Shown: piece after piece, positions 2,423-17,159 of the stretch
How the letters are laid out: every line of letters begins with the position of its first letter
How positions within the stretch are numbered: position 1 is the stretch's first letter
Origin: a virus
Direction: 5' to 3' (one strand)
IMG/VR virus record: IMGVR_UViG_3300032561_000105
Coordinates: 1-27,135 of that record
Length of the DNA: 27,135 nt
The notes under the pieces: generated by a model
What the model was told of the DNA's origin: nothing
Database searches by the model: none
The model's input: only the letters and a program-made list of their open reading frames with translations
Made by a program: the position numbers and the translations under genes

Positions 2423-4528
2423 ATGGCTATAAATAATGATGGTAATGGTGGCATTTACTCAAGCGAGTATGCAGACGAAGATAATACAGGCATCATTGAT
2501 GAAGCCAAAGAATATTTACGTTTCTGTTCTGATGCTGATTCTAATAATCGTGTTGAAGCTTTAAATGATTTAAAGTTTGCAGGTGGCGATCAATGGCCAG
2601 TAGAAATACAAAACTCACGTTTACTTGAATCAAGGCCTTATCTTACTATCAACAAGATTGATGCCTATTGCCGTCAGATAGAAAACCAACAAAGACAACA
2701 ACGCCCTCGCATGAAAGCGCATGGCATGAATGATGAATCAGACGAAAAGATAGCTGACATTATTACTGGTATATGCCGACACATTGAAAATCAATCTGAT
2801 GCTGATTCTGCTTACGATCATGCTTTTTCTTTTGCAGTCAGAATGGGTTGGGGATATTGGCGAGTAATACATGATTATCCTAGTCCTGATAGCTTTGACC
2901 AAGAAATTTACATTAAGCGTATTGAAAACGCTTTCATGGTTTACTTTGACCCTAACTCTAATGAGCCTGATGGTTCTGATGCTGAAAAGTGTCTAATTAC
3001 TGAAGTAGTAAGCAAAGAAACATTCCGTAAGATGTACCCTGGTGCTGATGATGGTGGTGGCTTTACCCCTCGTGGTACAGGTGATAGTCAATCAGAATGG
3101 ATAACTAAAGAAGATATACGTATTGCTGAGTATTTTTATACTGAACATACTAAAGTTAAATTATTACTGTTATCTGATGGTACAACTTGCTATAAAGATG
3201 AGAAGCCTAAAGAAACTATTTTACAAGATGCAGGTATCTATGTAGTTTCAGAACGTGAAACAGTTAGAAAGCAAATTAAATGGGTCAAGCTAACAGGTAT
3301 GCAAATACTTGAACAACGTGATTGGCCAGGTAGATTTATTCCAATCGTGCCAGTTTATGGGCAACAGTTAATTGTAGATAGTAAGAAAAAACGTTTTGGC
3401 TTAACACGTATGGCTAAAGACCCACAACGTATGTATAACTTCTGGTCAACAGCTCTGACTGAATCAGTTGCATTAGCACCTAAAGCTAAATACTTACTTG
3501 CTGAAGGTCAAGATGAAGGCCACGAGATGGAATGGAATTTAGCTAACGTTAAATCTATGCCTGTCTTACGCTATAAACAGACTGATTCTGAAGGCAGAAT
3601 GGCGCCTGTACCTACAAGGATTCAACCAGAACCACCGCCAGCAGGCATGGTAACGGCTTTACAAGGTTTAAATTCTGACCTAATGGCAGTAATAGGGATA
3701 TATGACCCTAGTCAGCTACCAAACGGCAATCAATCAGGCAAAGCTCTGAATGGTATGCAACAACAAACTGATATGACTAACTTTCACTACTATGACAATT
3801 TGACACGATCAATTCGTCAGACAGGTAGAATCATTTTAGACTTAATACCTCACATTTATGATAAACAACGCATTATGCGTATTATTGGTGCTGATGGTAA
3901 AGGCGAGCTTGTTACAATCAATGAACAAGGTCAAGATGAGCAAGGTGTTGATAAGGTATTAAATGACGTAACAGTAGGTCAATACGATATTGTGATGGAA
4001 ACTGGACCAGGCTATTCATCTAAACGCCAAGAAGCTGTTGATAGCATGATGAGTTTATTGCAAGCTGATCCTGCTTTAATGCAAACTGCTGGTGATTTAA
4101 TATTTAGAAATATGGACTTCCCTGGTGCTGATATTGTTGCAGATCGTTTAGCAGCAGCTAACCCACTTGCACAAATTGATGAGAAGTCTAATATTCCACC
4201 ACAAGTACAAATGCAATTAGCGCAATCACAACAAACTATCCAACAGTTACAACAACAGATTCAACAAATGACTATGGATATTCAGTACGGTGCTAGTGTT
4301 AAAGAGCAACAAGATAAAGCTATGCTACAAAAAGCACAGATGGAAATTGCTGCTAAAGTACACGATACTCAAATGCGTACAGATACTACAGCGCACGATA
4401 CAATTATCAAAACAGAAACACAGAAAGAAATTGAACACATGAAAGCGCAATTAGCTTTAATATTGGCTCAAATGGACCAAAGAGAACTTAAACTAGCGGA
4501 AGAAGAAGCAATTGAAAGGGGTATTTAA
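2423..4528 (+). CDS. P22-type portal protein
   Basis: A 701-residue protein, close to the length of P22 gp1 (725), following TerL by 9 nt with AAGGA upstream. The N-terminal region (EAKEYLRFCSDAD, then GGDQWP, then SRPYLTINKIDAYCRQIENQQR) and the segment MGWGYWRV are typical of the P22-like portal family. Residues from about 590 to 695 are Gln/Ala/Lys-rich and strongly helical (QSQQTIQQLQQQIQQMTMD), matching the C-terminal helical barrel of P22-type portals that extends into the capsid. Twelve copies form the DNA channel at one capsid vertex and bind the terminase, then the gp4-like hub protein. Its stop overlaps the next start by one base. Confidence 0.92.
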   Translation: MAINNDGNGGIYSSEYADEDNTGIIDEAKEYLRFCSDADSNNRVEALNDLKFAGGDQWPVEIQNSRLLESRPYLTINKIDAYCRQIENQQRQQRPRMKAHGMNDESDEKIADIITGICRHIENQSDADSAYDHAFSFAVRMGWGYWRVIHDYPSPDSFDQEIYIKRIENAFMVYFDPNSNEPDGSDAEKCLITEVVSKETFRKMYPGADDGGGFTPRGTGDSQSEWITKEDIRIAEYFYTEHTKVKLLLLSDGTTCYKDEKPKETILQDAGIYVVSERETVRKQIKWVKLTGMQILEQRDWPGRFIPIVPVYGQQLIVDSKKKRFGLTRMAKDPQRMYNFWSTALTESVALAPKAKYLLAEGQDEGHEMEWNLANVKSMPVLRYKQTDSEGRMAPVPTRIQPEPPPAGMVTALQGLNSDLMAVIGIYDPSQLPNGNQSGKALNGMQQQTDMTNFHYYDNLTRSIRQTGRIILDLIPHIYDKQRIMRIIGADGKGELVTINEQGQDEQGVDKVLNDVTVGQYDIVMETGPGYSSKRQEAVDSMMSLLQADPALMQTAGDLIFRNMDFPGADIVADRLAAANPLAQIDEKSNIPPQVQMQLAQSQQTIQQLQQQIQQMTMDIQYGASVKEQQDKAMLQKAQMEIAAKVHDTQMRTDTTAHDTIIKTETQKEIEHMKAQLALILAQMDQRELKLAEEEAIERGI

Positions 4529-12626: not shown

Positions 12627-13034
12627 ATGCAATTAATTATACATACAAACGAGAATGGTAATGTTTCAGTAACAACTCCTACAGGTGAGATTAGTATAGA
12701 AGCTGTGTTAGCTAAAGACTGTCCGCCTCACGCAATGATTGTTGATAGTTCAGAACTACCTGAAGAACATAATGACTTCTTTAACGCATGGGAATTAGTA
12801 GATGGCAAGGTAGTAGTCAATCTAGACAAGGCTAAACTACTTACTAAAGAACGATTACGCATAGAACGTACACCATTGTTATTAGCTCAAGATGTTGCTT
12901 ACTCAAGGGCTACAGAAACAGGTGCAGACACTACAGCCATTGTTGCTGAGAAGAATAGACTTCGTGATGTTACTAGCCTTGTAAATACAGTAGTTACACT
13001 AGAAGAATTGAAAGGATTGTCATGTCAAGCATAG
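12627..13034 (+). CDS. Tail fibre assembly chaperone-like protein
   Basis: A 135-residue protein directly after the fibre. ATG at 12627 is chosen because AAGGATAAAATA precedes it; a longer reading from 12558 lies inside the fibre gene. It begins MQLIIHTNENGNVSVTTPTG and contains DCPPHAMIVDSSELP, then FFNAWELVDGKVVVNLDKAK (about 52-71), then a long helix. This 'N-A-W-E-L-x-D-G-x-V-x-V-x-L-x-K-A' pattern is frequent in proteins encoded just after phage fibre genes and usually described as assembly chaperones. It may help the fibre trimerise or be a small tail component. Its end overlaps the remnant reading frame at 13022. Confidence 0.6.
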   Translation: MQLIIHTNENGNVSVTTPTGEISIEAVLAKDCPPHAMIVDSSELPEEHNDFFNAWELVDGKVVVNLDKAKLLTKERLRIERTPLLLAQDVAYSRATETGADTTAIVAEKNRLRDVTSLVNTVVTLEELKGLSCQA

Positions 13035-13057
13035 TCGTAGCTGGAGATACAGAGTAA
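13022..13057 (+). pseudogene. 11-codon remnant of a tail gene start (MSSIVVAGDT...)
   Basis: ATG at 13022, preceded by AAAGGA at a good distance, opens a frame that reads MSSIVVAGDTE and then stops at 13055-13057. MSSIVVAGDT followed by S-G-S-x-x-L is, from memory, the usual start of a widespread phage tail-protein family. Here the frame is cut off and the expected continuation, SGSTVLTLPSVSG, appears 48 nt later in another frame inside the next gene. This looks like a broken gene start left by an insertion. It overlaps the end of the chaperone-like gene. Confidence 0.5.
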
Positions 13058-13260
13058 TGACTACTTCTGTTTACTGGATACACCCACCAGAGCATACAGA
13101 TATATCTGGGAGTACAGTATTAACCTTGCCTAGTGTGAGTGGGAGTGTACTTTCATCAACGGCTGTAAGTACATCTGTATTAGGAACAGTTACTAATAAA
13201 ATAACAATTAATATAGGTGGTACTACTTACTATCTATTAGCTTCTACAAGTGGAGTTTAA
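13057..13260 (+). CDS. Hybrid small protein: GIY-YIG-like N-terminus joined to tail-protein C-terminus
   Basis: A 67-residue protein that looks like two joined pieces. Residues 1-16 (MTTSVYWIHPPEHTDI) match my memory of the opening strand of phage GIY-YIG homing endonucleases ('SVYWIHHPxHTDMFxQGYVGVS'). The G-Y-V-G motif and everything catalytic after it are missing. From residue 17 it reads SGSTVLTLPSVSGSVLSS and later TNKITINIGGTTYYLLAST, typical of small tail proteins that normally begin MSSIVVAGDT. Those ten residues are present just upstream at 13022 in another frame. The start overlaps the stop of that remnant (TAATG), so ribosomes could pass from one to the other. It probably has no nuclease activity. 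Confidence 0.55.
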   Translation: MTTSVYWIHPPEHTDISGSTVLTLPSVSGSVLSSTAVSTSVLGTVTNKITINIGGTTYYLLASTSGV

Positions 13261-13262
13261 TC

Positions 13263-13652
13263 ATGGCTAAAAATTTAGAAGTATTTGGTAAATGGTATGA
13301 TGGGATATTAAATTCATTCCCATTTTGTTTAGATGATACTTGGATTAAAACAATTGGTATCGCTTGGCTATTTACAGTAGAGGGTAAGTGGCAGTTTATC
13401 CCTAAGATAGTACCTAGCAATTGGCAATATGCTAACGCCTGTATCTTTGTTAGGTTTGGCTTACCATTTGCTTTCTTCATACAACTACGTGCTAGTCCTA
13501 CACACTTGTTTCAAGGTGGGATTGGTTGGAAGCAATCAGGCAGATTTGCAATACATTTTCGTTTTCAAACAGATGCAAGTTCAGCTATTGGTTATCATGT
13601 AGATATGCCTAATACAGATCATGCAAGTGGCTTTGAATATGGAAGGCATTAA
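13263..13652 (+). CDS. Phage-specific hypothetical protein, Trp/Phe-rich
   Basis: A 129-residue protein rich in aromatic residues: KWYDGILNSFPFCLDDTWIK, then GIAWLFTVEGKWQFIPKIV, WQYANACIFVRFGLPFAFF, and GIGWKQSGRFAIHFRFQTD. Proteins with this pattern (W-Q-Y-A-N-A-C-x-F-V-R, G-I-G-W-K-x-x-G-R-F-A-I-x-F-R-F-Q) are recurrent in environmental phages next to fibre genes and may be the DUF7338 type. Their role is not known. The segments are too polar for clear membrane helices. Only 2 nt separate it from the previous stop, so it lies in the same transcript. Confidence 0.6.
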   Translation: MAKNLEVFGKWYDGILNSFPFCLDDTWIKTIGIAWLFTVEGKWQFIPKIVPSNWQYANACIFVRFGLPFAFFIQLRASPTHLFQGGIGWKQSGRFAIHFRFQTDASSAIGYHVDMPNTDHASGFEYGRH

Positions 13653-13974: not shown

Positions 13975-14964
13975 ATGACGATGCCACTAGACATAATTTC
14001 ACGAGCTTTAAAAGATATAGGAGCTTTAGAAGCAGGTGAAACACCAACACCTGAAGCTACTCAAGATGCTTTTGATATGCTTAATGATTTAGTAGATCAA
14101 TGGTCAAATGAAGATATGATGGTCTATAACACGACTGAAATTATATTTCCATTAATTGCAGGTCAAGTTCAATATACAATCGGCCCTACACCATCTACTG
14201 CTAACTTTATTGGTTCAGTATTTACAGGTTCAATTACAGGCAATATTCTGACAGTAACAGGTATAACAAGTGGTGCAGTAGCACAAGGTCAAACACTTAA
14301 AGGTACTAACATTACAGCAGGTACTAAAATTGTTCAATTCTTAACAGGTGCAGGCGGTAATGTAAACGAAGTTGGTACATACGAATTAAATATTACTTAT
14401 ACTTCACCAGTGACTTCAGAATCAATTACAGCGTATTACCAGAAGCCTTTATATATTGACCAAGCGTATGTAAGGGTAAATACTCAAAGTAACGGCCAAC
14501 CTGTTTTAAATGGTGGTTTAGACTATCAAGTCAGTATTTTAGCTTTAGAAAATTATAATCAAATTGGATTAAAAACATTAAATGGCCCTTGGCCTAAAGC
14601 ACTTTATTACAATCCTAATGCTGTAACAGGTAATGTATTTGTATGGCCAAACCCTGCTCAAGGTGAGATGCACATATTCTCAAGTACAATCTTTAGTAAC
14701 TATACTAATTTGTATGATGAAATTGCTCTACCTCAAGGTTACTCAATGGCTCTTAGATGGAATCTAGCAGAACGATTGATGCCTATGTATGGCAAAGCCT
14801 CACAAATACAAATAGGCATGATTAATCAATACGCACAAGAATCTAAATCTACAATCAAACGTAATAACATGAAGCCTATTGCTTCTGCAAGTTATCCTAG
14901 CTCAATGCTAGTCAGCAGAGCAAAAGATGCAGGTTGGATTTTGAGTGGGGGCTTCTTCAGTTGA
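13975..14964 (+). CDS. Tail accessory / head completion protein, P22 gp4-like
   Basis: A 329-residue protein beginning [20 protein letters not shown], followed by [20 protein letters not shown], which is the conserved helical start of the P22 gp4 (tail accessory factor) family. It attaches below the portal dodecamer and keeps DNA inside. P22 gp4 has only 166 residues. Part of the difference is an inserted beta domain at residues about 83-153 ([18 protein letters not shown] ... [15 protein letters not shown]), which is also found twice in the next gene. The family pattern resumes with [15 protein letters not shown]. The C-terminal region contains [16 protein letters not shown]. Its stop codon overlaps a promoter-like TTGACA. 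Confidence 0.82.
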
Positions 14965-15029: not shown

Positions 15030-17159
15030 ATGTCAGATTTTGGATTTGTAGGGCCAAGTTATGAAGCACCTAGTATCTACCAAGATGCTCAAGAGTGTAT
15101 TAACTGGCGTCCAGAAATTGATCCATTGAAATCCCCTGCTAGTGCAACTTCAGCAGCAAGTAGAGGTATTGTAGCTTTATATCCAACACCTGGTTTGCAA
15201 TCATTAATTTTATTACAAAATCAAGCTCAAGTACGAGGCATGAGAACTGTATCAGGTGGCAATTATTTAGTAGCAGTATGTGGCCCTTATGTCTATGTGC
15301 TAACTTCAAACTTTGTACCAACTTTAGTAGGCACATTAAATTCTAATTCTGGCATGGTAGGAATTACTGATAATGGATTAAATGTTTATATAGTTGATGG
15401 TTCATATCGTTATACATGGCGCATATCAAACCCTGCTAGTGCAGTATTCACAGGTTCAATATCAGGTACAACTTTAACTGTTACTTTATTAAAAAGTGGT
15501 AGTATTGGTGTAGGTCAATCATTATTTGGTGTTGGTTTAACTGCTGAAACTGTTATTACTGCTTTAGGTAGTGGTAGTGGTGGCCCAGGTACTTATACAG
15601 TTAATATTTCACAAACTGAAACTTCAGAAGTAATGAATAGTGCTGCTGTAGCTGCAACATTAACTGGATCAATATCAGGTACAACTTTAACTGTTACATC
15701 AGTAACAGGAACATTATATCCAGGTCAAACAATACAAGGTATTGGAGTAACGGCAGGCACGATTATTACCACATTAGGGAGCGGTACTGTTCTAAGTCAA
15801 ACAATTACTGCTGGTGGCACAGGTTATAACGTAAATGATGTAATTACAGTTTTAGGTGGTGTATATGGTACAACGCCAGCAACTTATGTAGTAAGTACAG
15901 TTTCAGCAGGGGTAGTAACAGGTCTAACAATGACTAATGCAGGTGCTTATACTTCATTACCTACTAATCCTGTTTCTACATCATGTAGTGGTGCAGGAAT
16001 AAACTTAACATTAACACTTACTTTTGGTACAGGTTCTGGTGGTACAGGTAATTATGTAGTTAGTGCTTCACAAACAGTAGCATCAGAAACATTATATGCG
16101 CTTAACTTTAGCGTATTGCCTAATTCTGATGGTGCATTTAGTGGAGCTACTTCAGTAGATATTGTAGATAATTATTTTATTTATAATAAACCTAATACTC
16201 AACAATGGGGAGCAACTAATCCTTTATCTCCTATTAGTCAGCCTTTAAGTTTTTCATCTAAAGATGGCGCACCTGATAATCTTGTTACATTAATTGTCGA
16301 TCATAGAGAAGTTTATTTATTAGGTGAAACTTCTTCAGAAGTATGGGTAGATGTAGGTACATTCCCTTTTGCTTTTCAACGCATACCTGGCACATCAACA
16401 CAACATGGAATTGCTGCAAAATCTTCAGTATCACGTTTAGGCAATTCTTTTGCTTATGTTTCAAGAAATCAACGTGGGCAATCTGAAATTATGCAAATGA
16501 ATGGTTATATACCACAACGCATATCTACTCATGCTGTAGAAAATACTTTAGTTAATCAATATGTAGGTGATGCAATAGCTTGGACATATCAATTAGAAGG
16601 ACATGAGTGTTATGTTGTAAGTTTTCCTACTATTAATTTGACTTGGGTATATGATATTACAACAGGTATGTGGCATAAATGGTTAGCAACTGATCCATTA
16701 ACTGGTCAATACGATATGTACACAGGTTGTTGTAGTGCGGTATTTCAAGGATTAGTTGTAGTAGGTGATTATGCAGATGGGCATATTTATAAACTTGATC
16801 CTGATACATATACAGATGATGGTGTAGAAATTAGACGATTAAGAAGATGCCCTCATTTAGTTACAGATTTACAAAGACAATACTTTGATGAATTACAAAT
16901 ACAGTTTCAACCTGGTGTTGGTAATATTGTAGATCCAGGCTCTGATCCTCAAGCTATGTTAAGATGGTCAAATGATGGCGGTAGTACATGGTCAAATGAA
17001 CATTGGACAACTATTGGTAAAATAGGTCGTTATAAAAACAGAGCTATATGGCGCAGATTAGGTATGGCACGAGATAGAGTATTTGAAGTAGTTGTAACAG
17101 ACCCTATTAAGGCTGTTATTATTTCAGCTAATCTTAAGGCTTCAGAAGGTGAGAGTTAA
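15030..17159 (+). CDS. Tail hub / packaged DNA stabilisation protein, P22 gp10-like, with inserted beta domains
   Basis: A 709-residue protein, next to gp4 as in P22. The start (MSDFGFVGPSYEAPSIYQDA, then QECINWRPEID) and the later regions SVDIVDNYFIYNKPNTQQWG, LLGETSSEVWVDVGTFPFAF and RYKNRAIWRRLGMARDRVFE fit gp10-like hub proteins, which form the beta-propeller ring under gp4. P22 gp10 has 472 residues. Residues about 140-357 are extra: copy A of a beta domain (140-205), then copy B (211-357), which is itself split by a different domain at about 254-331 (TITAGGTGYNVNDVITVLGG ...). Removing them leaves about 490 residues, near the P22 length. Copies A and B share a 29-nt exact DNA repeat, so the duplication looks recent. 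AAGGAAAG lies before the ATG. Confidence 0.83.
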   Translation: MSDFGFVGPSYEAPSIYQDAQECINWRPEIDPLKSPASATSAASRGIVALYPTPGLQSLILLQNQAQVRGMRTVSGGNYLVAVCGPYVYVLTSNFVPTLVGTLNSNSGMVGITDNGLNVYIVDGSYRYTWRISNPASAVFTGSISGTTLTVTLLKSGSIGVGQSLFGVGLTAETVITALGSGSGGPGTYTVNISQTETSEVMNSAAVAATLTGSISGTTLTVTSVTGTLYPGQTIQGIGVTAGTIITTLGSGTVLSQTITAGGTGYNVNDVITVLGGVYGTTPATYVVSTVSAGVVTGLTMTNAGAYTSLPTNPVSTSCSGAGINLTLTLTFGTGSGGTGNYVVSASQTVASETLYALNFSVLPNSDGAFSGATSVDIVDNYFIYNKPNTQQWGATNPLSPISQPLSFSSKDGAPDNLVTLIVDHREVYLLGETSSEVWVDVGTFPFAFQRIPGTSTQHGIAAKSSVSRLGNSFAYVSRNQRGQSEIMQMNGYIPQRISTHAVENTLVNQYVGDAIAWTYQLEGHECYVVSFPTINLTWVYDITTGMWHKWLATDPLTGQYDMYTGCCSAVFQGLVVVGDYADGHIYKLDPDTYTDDGVEIRRLRRCPHLVTDLQRQYFDELQIQFQPGVGNIVDPGSDPQAMLRWSNDGGSTWSNEHWTTIGKIGRYKNRAIWRRLGMARDRVFEVVVTDPIKAVIISANLKASEGES
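15456..15697 (+). repeat. 29-nt exact direct repeat marking a duplicated beta domain
   Basis: Identical 29-nt copies occur at 15456-15484 and 15669-15697, 213 bp apart (71 codons, in frame). Each encodes the start of the beta domain (S-I-S-G-T-T-L-T-V-T). Downstream the two domain copies have diverged. The repeat is within the gp10-like gene. Confidence 0.85.

Follow-up and report, generated by a model that had tools for sequence, protein, structure and literature searches.

The window, by which we mean the whole stretch of 27,135 nucleotides analysed here (positions 1 to 27,135 of IMG/VR virus record IMGVR_UViG_3300032561_000105), derives from a freshwater phage. Matches to P22 portal, Terminase_3, P22 coat, head closure Hc3 and adaptor Ad3 were found among its proteins, by which it is part of a P22-like podovirus. 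In the virion-structure region, between genes encoding proteins of 135 and 129 residues, lie two short frames, MSSIVVAGDTE and a 67-codon frame that starts on its stop, at the coordinates that an earlier sequence-only reading had given. Other contigs and loci are designated by L numbers (L106 and L023 are the same contig, UViG_3300032677_000845). The features of the locus, named according to the interpretation argued below, are as follows.

12627..13034, plus strand: upstream neighbour, 135 aa, overlapping the start of the stub; match to phrog_20196 (unknown function), E = 1.5e-11
13011..13016, plus strand: Shine-Dalgarno-like AAAGGA of the stub frame, with 5 nt spacing to the ATG
13022..13057, plus strand: stub MSSIVVAGDTE, i.e. 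the first 10 codons of the putatively invaded tail gene, one further codon and a stop
13057..13260, plus strand: 67-aa fusion frame MTTSVYWIHPPEHTDISGSTVLTLPSVSGSVLSSTAVSTSVLGTVTNKITINIGGTTYYLLASTSGV, whose start overlaps the stub stop (TAATG)
13057..13095, plus strand: nuclease-derived 5′ part of the fusion (MTTSVYWIHPPEH), equivalent to codons 1-13 of a GIY-YIG gene
13096..13103, plus strand: putative deletion junction ACAGATAT, an 8-bp micro-repeat, found in L105 at 3040 (nuclease TDM) and at 3833 (tail TDI)
13104..13260, plus strand: tail-derived part of the fusion (ISGSTVLTLPSVSG...LLASTSGV), by homology to tail genes
13263..13652, plus strand: downstream neighbour, 129 aa, used as synteny anchor; 23 relatives in viral contigs

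The stub runs from an ATG at 13022 to a TAA stop at 13055-13057, and its AAAGGA is a good Shine-Dalgarno sequence. For the 67-aa frame, the only Shine-Dalgarno sequence is a weakly placed GGAG (13043-13046), and given the TAATG overlap it is likely to be translated by termination-reinitiation. The 67-aa protein gave no Pfam or PHROG match; the GIY-YIG domain is absent, and only 13-15 N-terminal nuclease residues are present. Its C-terminal part has homologues in the 72-aa tail genes of L005-L016 and L028-L097, and the conserved C-terminal half (residues about 16-66) is 55-83% identical to most of the further loci found. The N-terminal GxTSG motif of the tail family (MSSxxxxGDTSG...TNKIAINIGGTTYYLLASTSG) is absent from the window allele, which has nuclease codons instead. 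The type of gene start seen in this short family is also found on tail fibre genes. Among the neighbouring genes, the head-tail connector genes at 13975-14964 and 15030-17159 both match an extra module, phrog_21413 (TGSISGTTLTVT...), which is apparently a domain inserted in both.

Alleles were sought with the 129-aa downstream gene as anchor, and separately with the 67-aa protein. Three allele states were found, namely empty, occupied and scar. The empty allele reads MSSIVVAGDTSGSVTLSAP... or MSSIVVAGDTSGSVSLSTPTDISGSTVLTLP; in a DNA pattern scan for the stub, ATGTCAAGCATAGTCGTAGCTGGCGATACC-AGCGGAAGTG was found in L183, L184 and L190, and MSSIVVAGDTSGSVSLSTPTDISGSTVLTLP in L186 and L188. An uninterrupted 72-aa gene lies directly upstream of the anchor in 12 relatives (L005-L016; in L009, for example, MSSIVVAGNTSGSVTLSAPAVAGTATITLPTVTGNMLSSTGV...), and uninterrupted genes with the same start as the stub also occur in L009/L010. 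The stub DNA of the window differs by a single base from the occupied alleles L105/L106, and likewise by a single base from the empty alleles L183/L184/L190 when compared up to GATAC. It had been predicted from the sequence that uninterrupted relatives would join MSSIVVAGDT directly to SGSTVLTLP. Genes with that start do exist, but the uninterrupted protein is MSSIVVAGDTSGSVSLSTPTDISGSTVLTLP rather than this direct join. The SGS of the window frame is present as described, but it belongs to a later TDISGS, about 11 codons downstream of GDT-SGS in the intact genes; therefore the deletion would also have removed the N-terminus of the tail gene.

In the occupied allele (L105 and L023/L106), GATACAGAG is followed by TAATG, a 261-aa GIY-YIG homing nuclease and then a tail gene. 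L023 reads MSSIVVAGDTE and then the 261-aa frame MTTSVYWIHRPEHTDMFTQGYIGITKNLKRRF..., and L105, which comes from a different sample, encodes the same nuclease protein with 100% identity, so the sequence-only proposal that a GIY-YIG gene had inserted after codon 10 is borne out by full nucleases at exactly that point. The stub is split off, but a complete replacement start, VGDIVLAGATSGACTLHPTDISGS, follows the nuclease. In L105 the TGA stop of the nuclease overlaps the GTG start of the tail gene (TGTGGGTGA), AAGGAG stands 7 bases upstream, and the tail gene, of a long type, is complete (VGDIVLAGATSGACTLHPTDISGSTVLTLPSVSG...). The occupied element thus does not behead the tail gene, a replacement N-terminus coming after it. 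L106/L023 holds the full nuclease, TDISGS and the 3′ flank of the short tail type (GCAGTTTAATCATGG) in one contig, and its tail gene is truncated. At L106 3833-3860, GGGAGT is joined to GCAGTTTAATCATGG, leaving a 26-codon tail remnant behind the full nuclease gene; this is a second, independent deletion in the same tail gene, at a GAGT(R)CAGT micro-repeat. The scar allele is found in the window and in three other contigs (L182, L185 and L191).

The nuclease of L105/L023 contains a GIY-YIG domain (PF01541, E = 4.3e-5, 24.2 bits versus a curated cut-off of 22.6) and matches phage homing-endonuclease PHROGs with E-values down to 3.7e-15. Y6, Y21, G23, R31, H35, E73 and N85 are invariant across 16 nuclease relatives, and all of these except Y6 would be catalytic-type residues if their roles are assigned after I-TevI. 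A search of the PDB with the sequence profile of the nuclease gave no match. The AlphaFold model of the nuclease domain has a pLDDT of about 90, and its top PDB match in Foldseek is the catalytic domain of I-TevI, 1mk0 (probability 1.00, TM 0.64 by target, E = 0.012). The N-terminal residues retained in the scar are a motif of the whole nuclease family. The frame leaves the nuclease before the YIG motif and the Arg, His, Glu and Asn residues, keeping only Y6, so the 67-aa protein should be unable to cut DNA; it may be a partly functional or a defective tail protein.

How, then, did the window allele arise? A two-sequence comparison of window 13022-13103 with the full GIY-YIG allele gives 80 matches in 82 nt (E = 3e-36), with one mismatch to the L105 nuclease DNA within 13057..13095, while the 47 nt from 13096 show no mismatch to the L105 tail gene. 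With matches of this extent on both the left and the right of the junction, the resemblance is not due to chance, and they agree with the earlier suggestion that the nuclease was mostly deleted and its start kept for the C-terminal part of the tail gene. The two copies of ACAGATAT in L105, at 3040 and 3833, lie 793 bp apart. When the opening 120 nt of the stub-plus-nuclease stretch in that contig are compared with the 5′ end of its tail gene, ACAGATAT is the only match of at least 7 nt. Such a pattern is the mark of a deletion at a micro-repeat, whether within one genome or across two.

Every sequence of the window type was taken from a virus record of metagenomic origin, and one might ask whether the junction is a chimera of assembly. 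Over 8.1 kb in L185 and 5.9 kb in L191 there is no difference from the window, and both have the same junction; L182 differs from the window by 14 ungapped mismatches, the ten listed all lying more than 4.8 kb upstream of the junction. These three near-identical contigs come from three other metagenomes, so the scar is not an assembly error, and a repeat of 8 bp is too short to mislead k-mer assembly. We reject an artefact, which is the least credible of all explanations considered.

Beyond those 47 nt on the right-hand side, the window no longer follows L105 but a different tail-gene type, and the exact pre-deletion parent is in no single contig, L105 having the long tail and L023/L106 the short-tail 3′ flank with a truncated tail gene. 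For this reason recombination between two phages is possible, that is, an illegitimate exchange at ACAGATAT between a nuclease-carrying phage and the tail gene of another. Tail genes here are mosaic, and L186 and L192-L194 share TDISGS with different flanks, as such an exchange would allow; yet the nuclease, TDISGS and the short-tail flank stand together in L023/L106, which makes an in-cis parent plausible. We consider exchange between two phages unlikely, though it deserves to be kept in mind. Within the first 30 codons of the tail genes of L186/L188, L183/L184/L190 and L192-L194, one and the same start can be followed by either APAVAGS or TPTDISGS as second segment, and one and the same second segment can follow different starts. 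When the right flank was scanned for, MGTVVINGSTSGSCTLHPTDISGSTVLTLP turned up in L192-L194, whose upstream flank is shared with L105.

On this evidence, 13022-13260 is very probably a scar left by deletion of a free-standing GIY-YIG homing-endonuclease gene, which had entered a tail gene after codon 10. The nuclease gene would have inserted there first, creating the stub MSSIVVAGDTE with its stop and placing the nuclease start on that stop (TAATG). The occupied gene would have restarted downstream, at a GTG over the nuclease stop with its own AAGGAG. A deletion between the ACAGATAT copies (793 bp in L105 coordinates) would then have removed both the replacement N-terminus of the tail gene and all of the nuclease beyond codon 13. 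This would have put the first 13-15 nuclease codons in one frame with the tail gene from TDISGS onward, so that what is left is the nuclease start followed by TDISGSTVLTLP, and the tail remainder would be translated by reinitiation at TAATG, a signal that once served the nuclease.

It is also conceivable that the two frames form a functional split tail gene, or that a programmed event yields MSSIVVAGDT-DISGSTVLTLP, either a bypass like that of T4 gene 60, from ACA in GDT to ACA of HTD, or a frameshift. Copies of ATACAGA bound the gap separating the frames on either side, and the take-off and landing codons would match. The same pair of repeats, however, is present in the intact nuclease alleles, where there is nothing to bypass; moreover, reinitiation at TAATG is simpler, and there is no conservation outside one population. 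A bypass or frameshift was therefore rejected, and an explanation of this kind is very improbable. Nor is the 67-aa protein an old conserved unit, which would have spoken against a scar: conservation as such in diverse phages was not found, the intact relatives have an M...GxTSG-type start, and among the loci searched the short YWIH fusion is found only in the window allele, in no relative outside its population.

The arrangement recurs beyond this one nuclease. By reading, 29 of 35 distinct loci with a complete 3′ end have a tail-type gene start directly downstream of the nuclease (an automatic count of 30 had included two false matches and overlooked one locus). In at least five nuclease lineages, which share 37-50% identity with one another, the nuclease is preceded by a tail-gene stub. 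All these stubs end at a G-x-T codon triplet about ten codons into the tail gene, which restarts intact downstream.

L105: stub GGCGATACA
L121 and L129: stub GGGAACACT
L138: stub GGCACAACA
L126 and L133: stub GGCACAACT
L136 and the cultured phage MEP301: stub GGCGATACC or GGCGACACC, fused in frame

Aligned with the tail start that follows their own nuclease, the stubs reach a summed score of 248, against a mean of 99.5 and a maximum of 147 for shuffles (n=2000). The other nuclease loci have no clear stub, and many of these nucleases appear to take the place of the start codon of the tail gene. Those of L107, L108, L113-L118 and L120 occupy the tail-gene start position and begin with MASV, MSSV or MANV like the tail gene, as if inserted after its codon 3-4; TTG is the restart codon of the tail gene in L113-L118. 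In L136 and L178 (MEP301, MW452941, gp20), tail codons 1-10 (MASIKLKGDT and MASIKLQGDT, respectively) run on in frame into the nuclease, which therefore uses the tail gene's own start, and an almost identical tail start lies downstream. A scan of bacterial genomes found two nuclease relatives only, L195 (a contig of a pond MAG) with the nuclease-then-tail order, and one in a Hyphomicrobiales MAG with no recognisable tail gene.

Because the stubs of five lineages end there, G-x-T|SG is a likely homing site, at which cleavage would occur. The intact nuclease presumably cuts uninvaded tail genes at these codons, and homologous repair would then copy it in, while the replacement 5′ end downstream would spare the invaded gene. 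More tentatively, and with rather less than even confidence, we suggest that these GIY-YIG nucleases could be a dedicated homing class that targets the conserved G-x-T|SG start module of tail-fibre-type genes and carries a replacement 5′ end; homing with co-conversion of the flanks would then swap N- and C-terminal tail modules and help drive mosaicism.

Free-standing GIY-YIG (Seg) and HNH (Mob) homing endonucleases and split genes are known in T4-like phages, such as mobE in Aeh1 nrdA and mobA in T4 gene 60 (PMC2988022). As there, an intron-less nuclease with the GIY-YIG fold lies in or beside a conserved phage gene whose reading frame is broken. What differs is the target, a tail gene invaded near codon 10 that starts again with a complete N-terminus downstream, and, in the window, the loss of the nuclease by deletion with capture of its start codons. 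In fungal mitochondria, mORFs bring a replacement gene end (atp6, atp9, cox2 and nad3; Allomyces and Glomus; PMC3630166), and the phage element similarly brings along a stand-in for part of the invaded gene and orphans the native part, except that the C-terminus is replaced in the fungi and the N-terminus in these phages. Truncated remnants of HNH endonucleases are present in 56 of 268 lactococcal Skunavirus (PMC12724721); partly deleted homing-nuclease genes are thus common in phages, whereas the remnant here forms one frame with the gene that was invaded and gives it its start codon. The Methylophilales phage MEP301 (gp20/gp19, MW452941) has a nuclease of the same family, which, in contrast to the window, is intact and continues the MASIKLQGDT stub in frame, followed by the tail fibre gene MASIKLQGDVSGELTI. 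In the open-access papers searched, we found no described case of a phage nuclease replacing the 5′ end of a gene.

As an example of a process already known, the scar is new, and its product is unusual; the tail-gene site that recurs, with the gene restarting downstream, is new as a variant. One homing site is seen here in its empty, occupied and deleted states, each resolved to the base. Together these alleles show the way in which a selfish nuclease gets lost, and the part of it that ends up inside a structural gene would provide this gene with a start and an N-terminus that it did not have before. The phage pattern mirrors the endonuclease elements of fungal mitochondria that replace C-termini, and it would tie the mosaicism seen in tail genes to homing nucleases.
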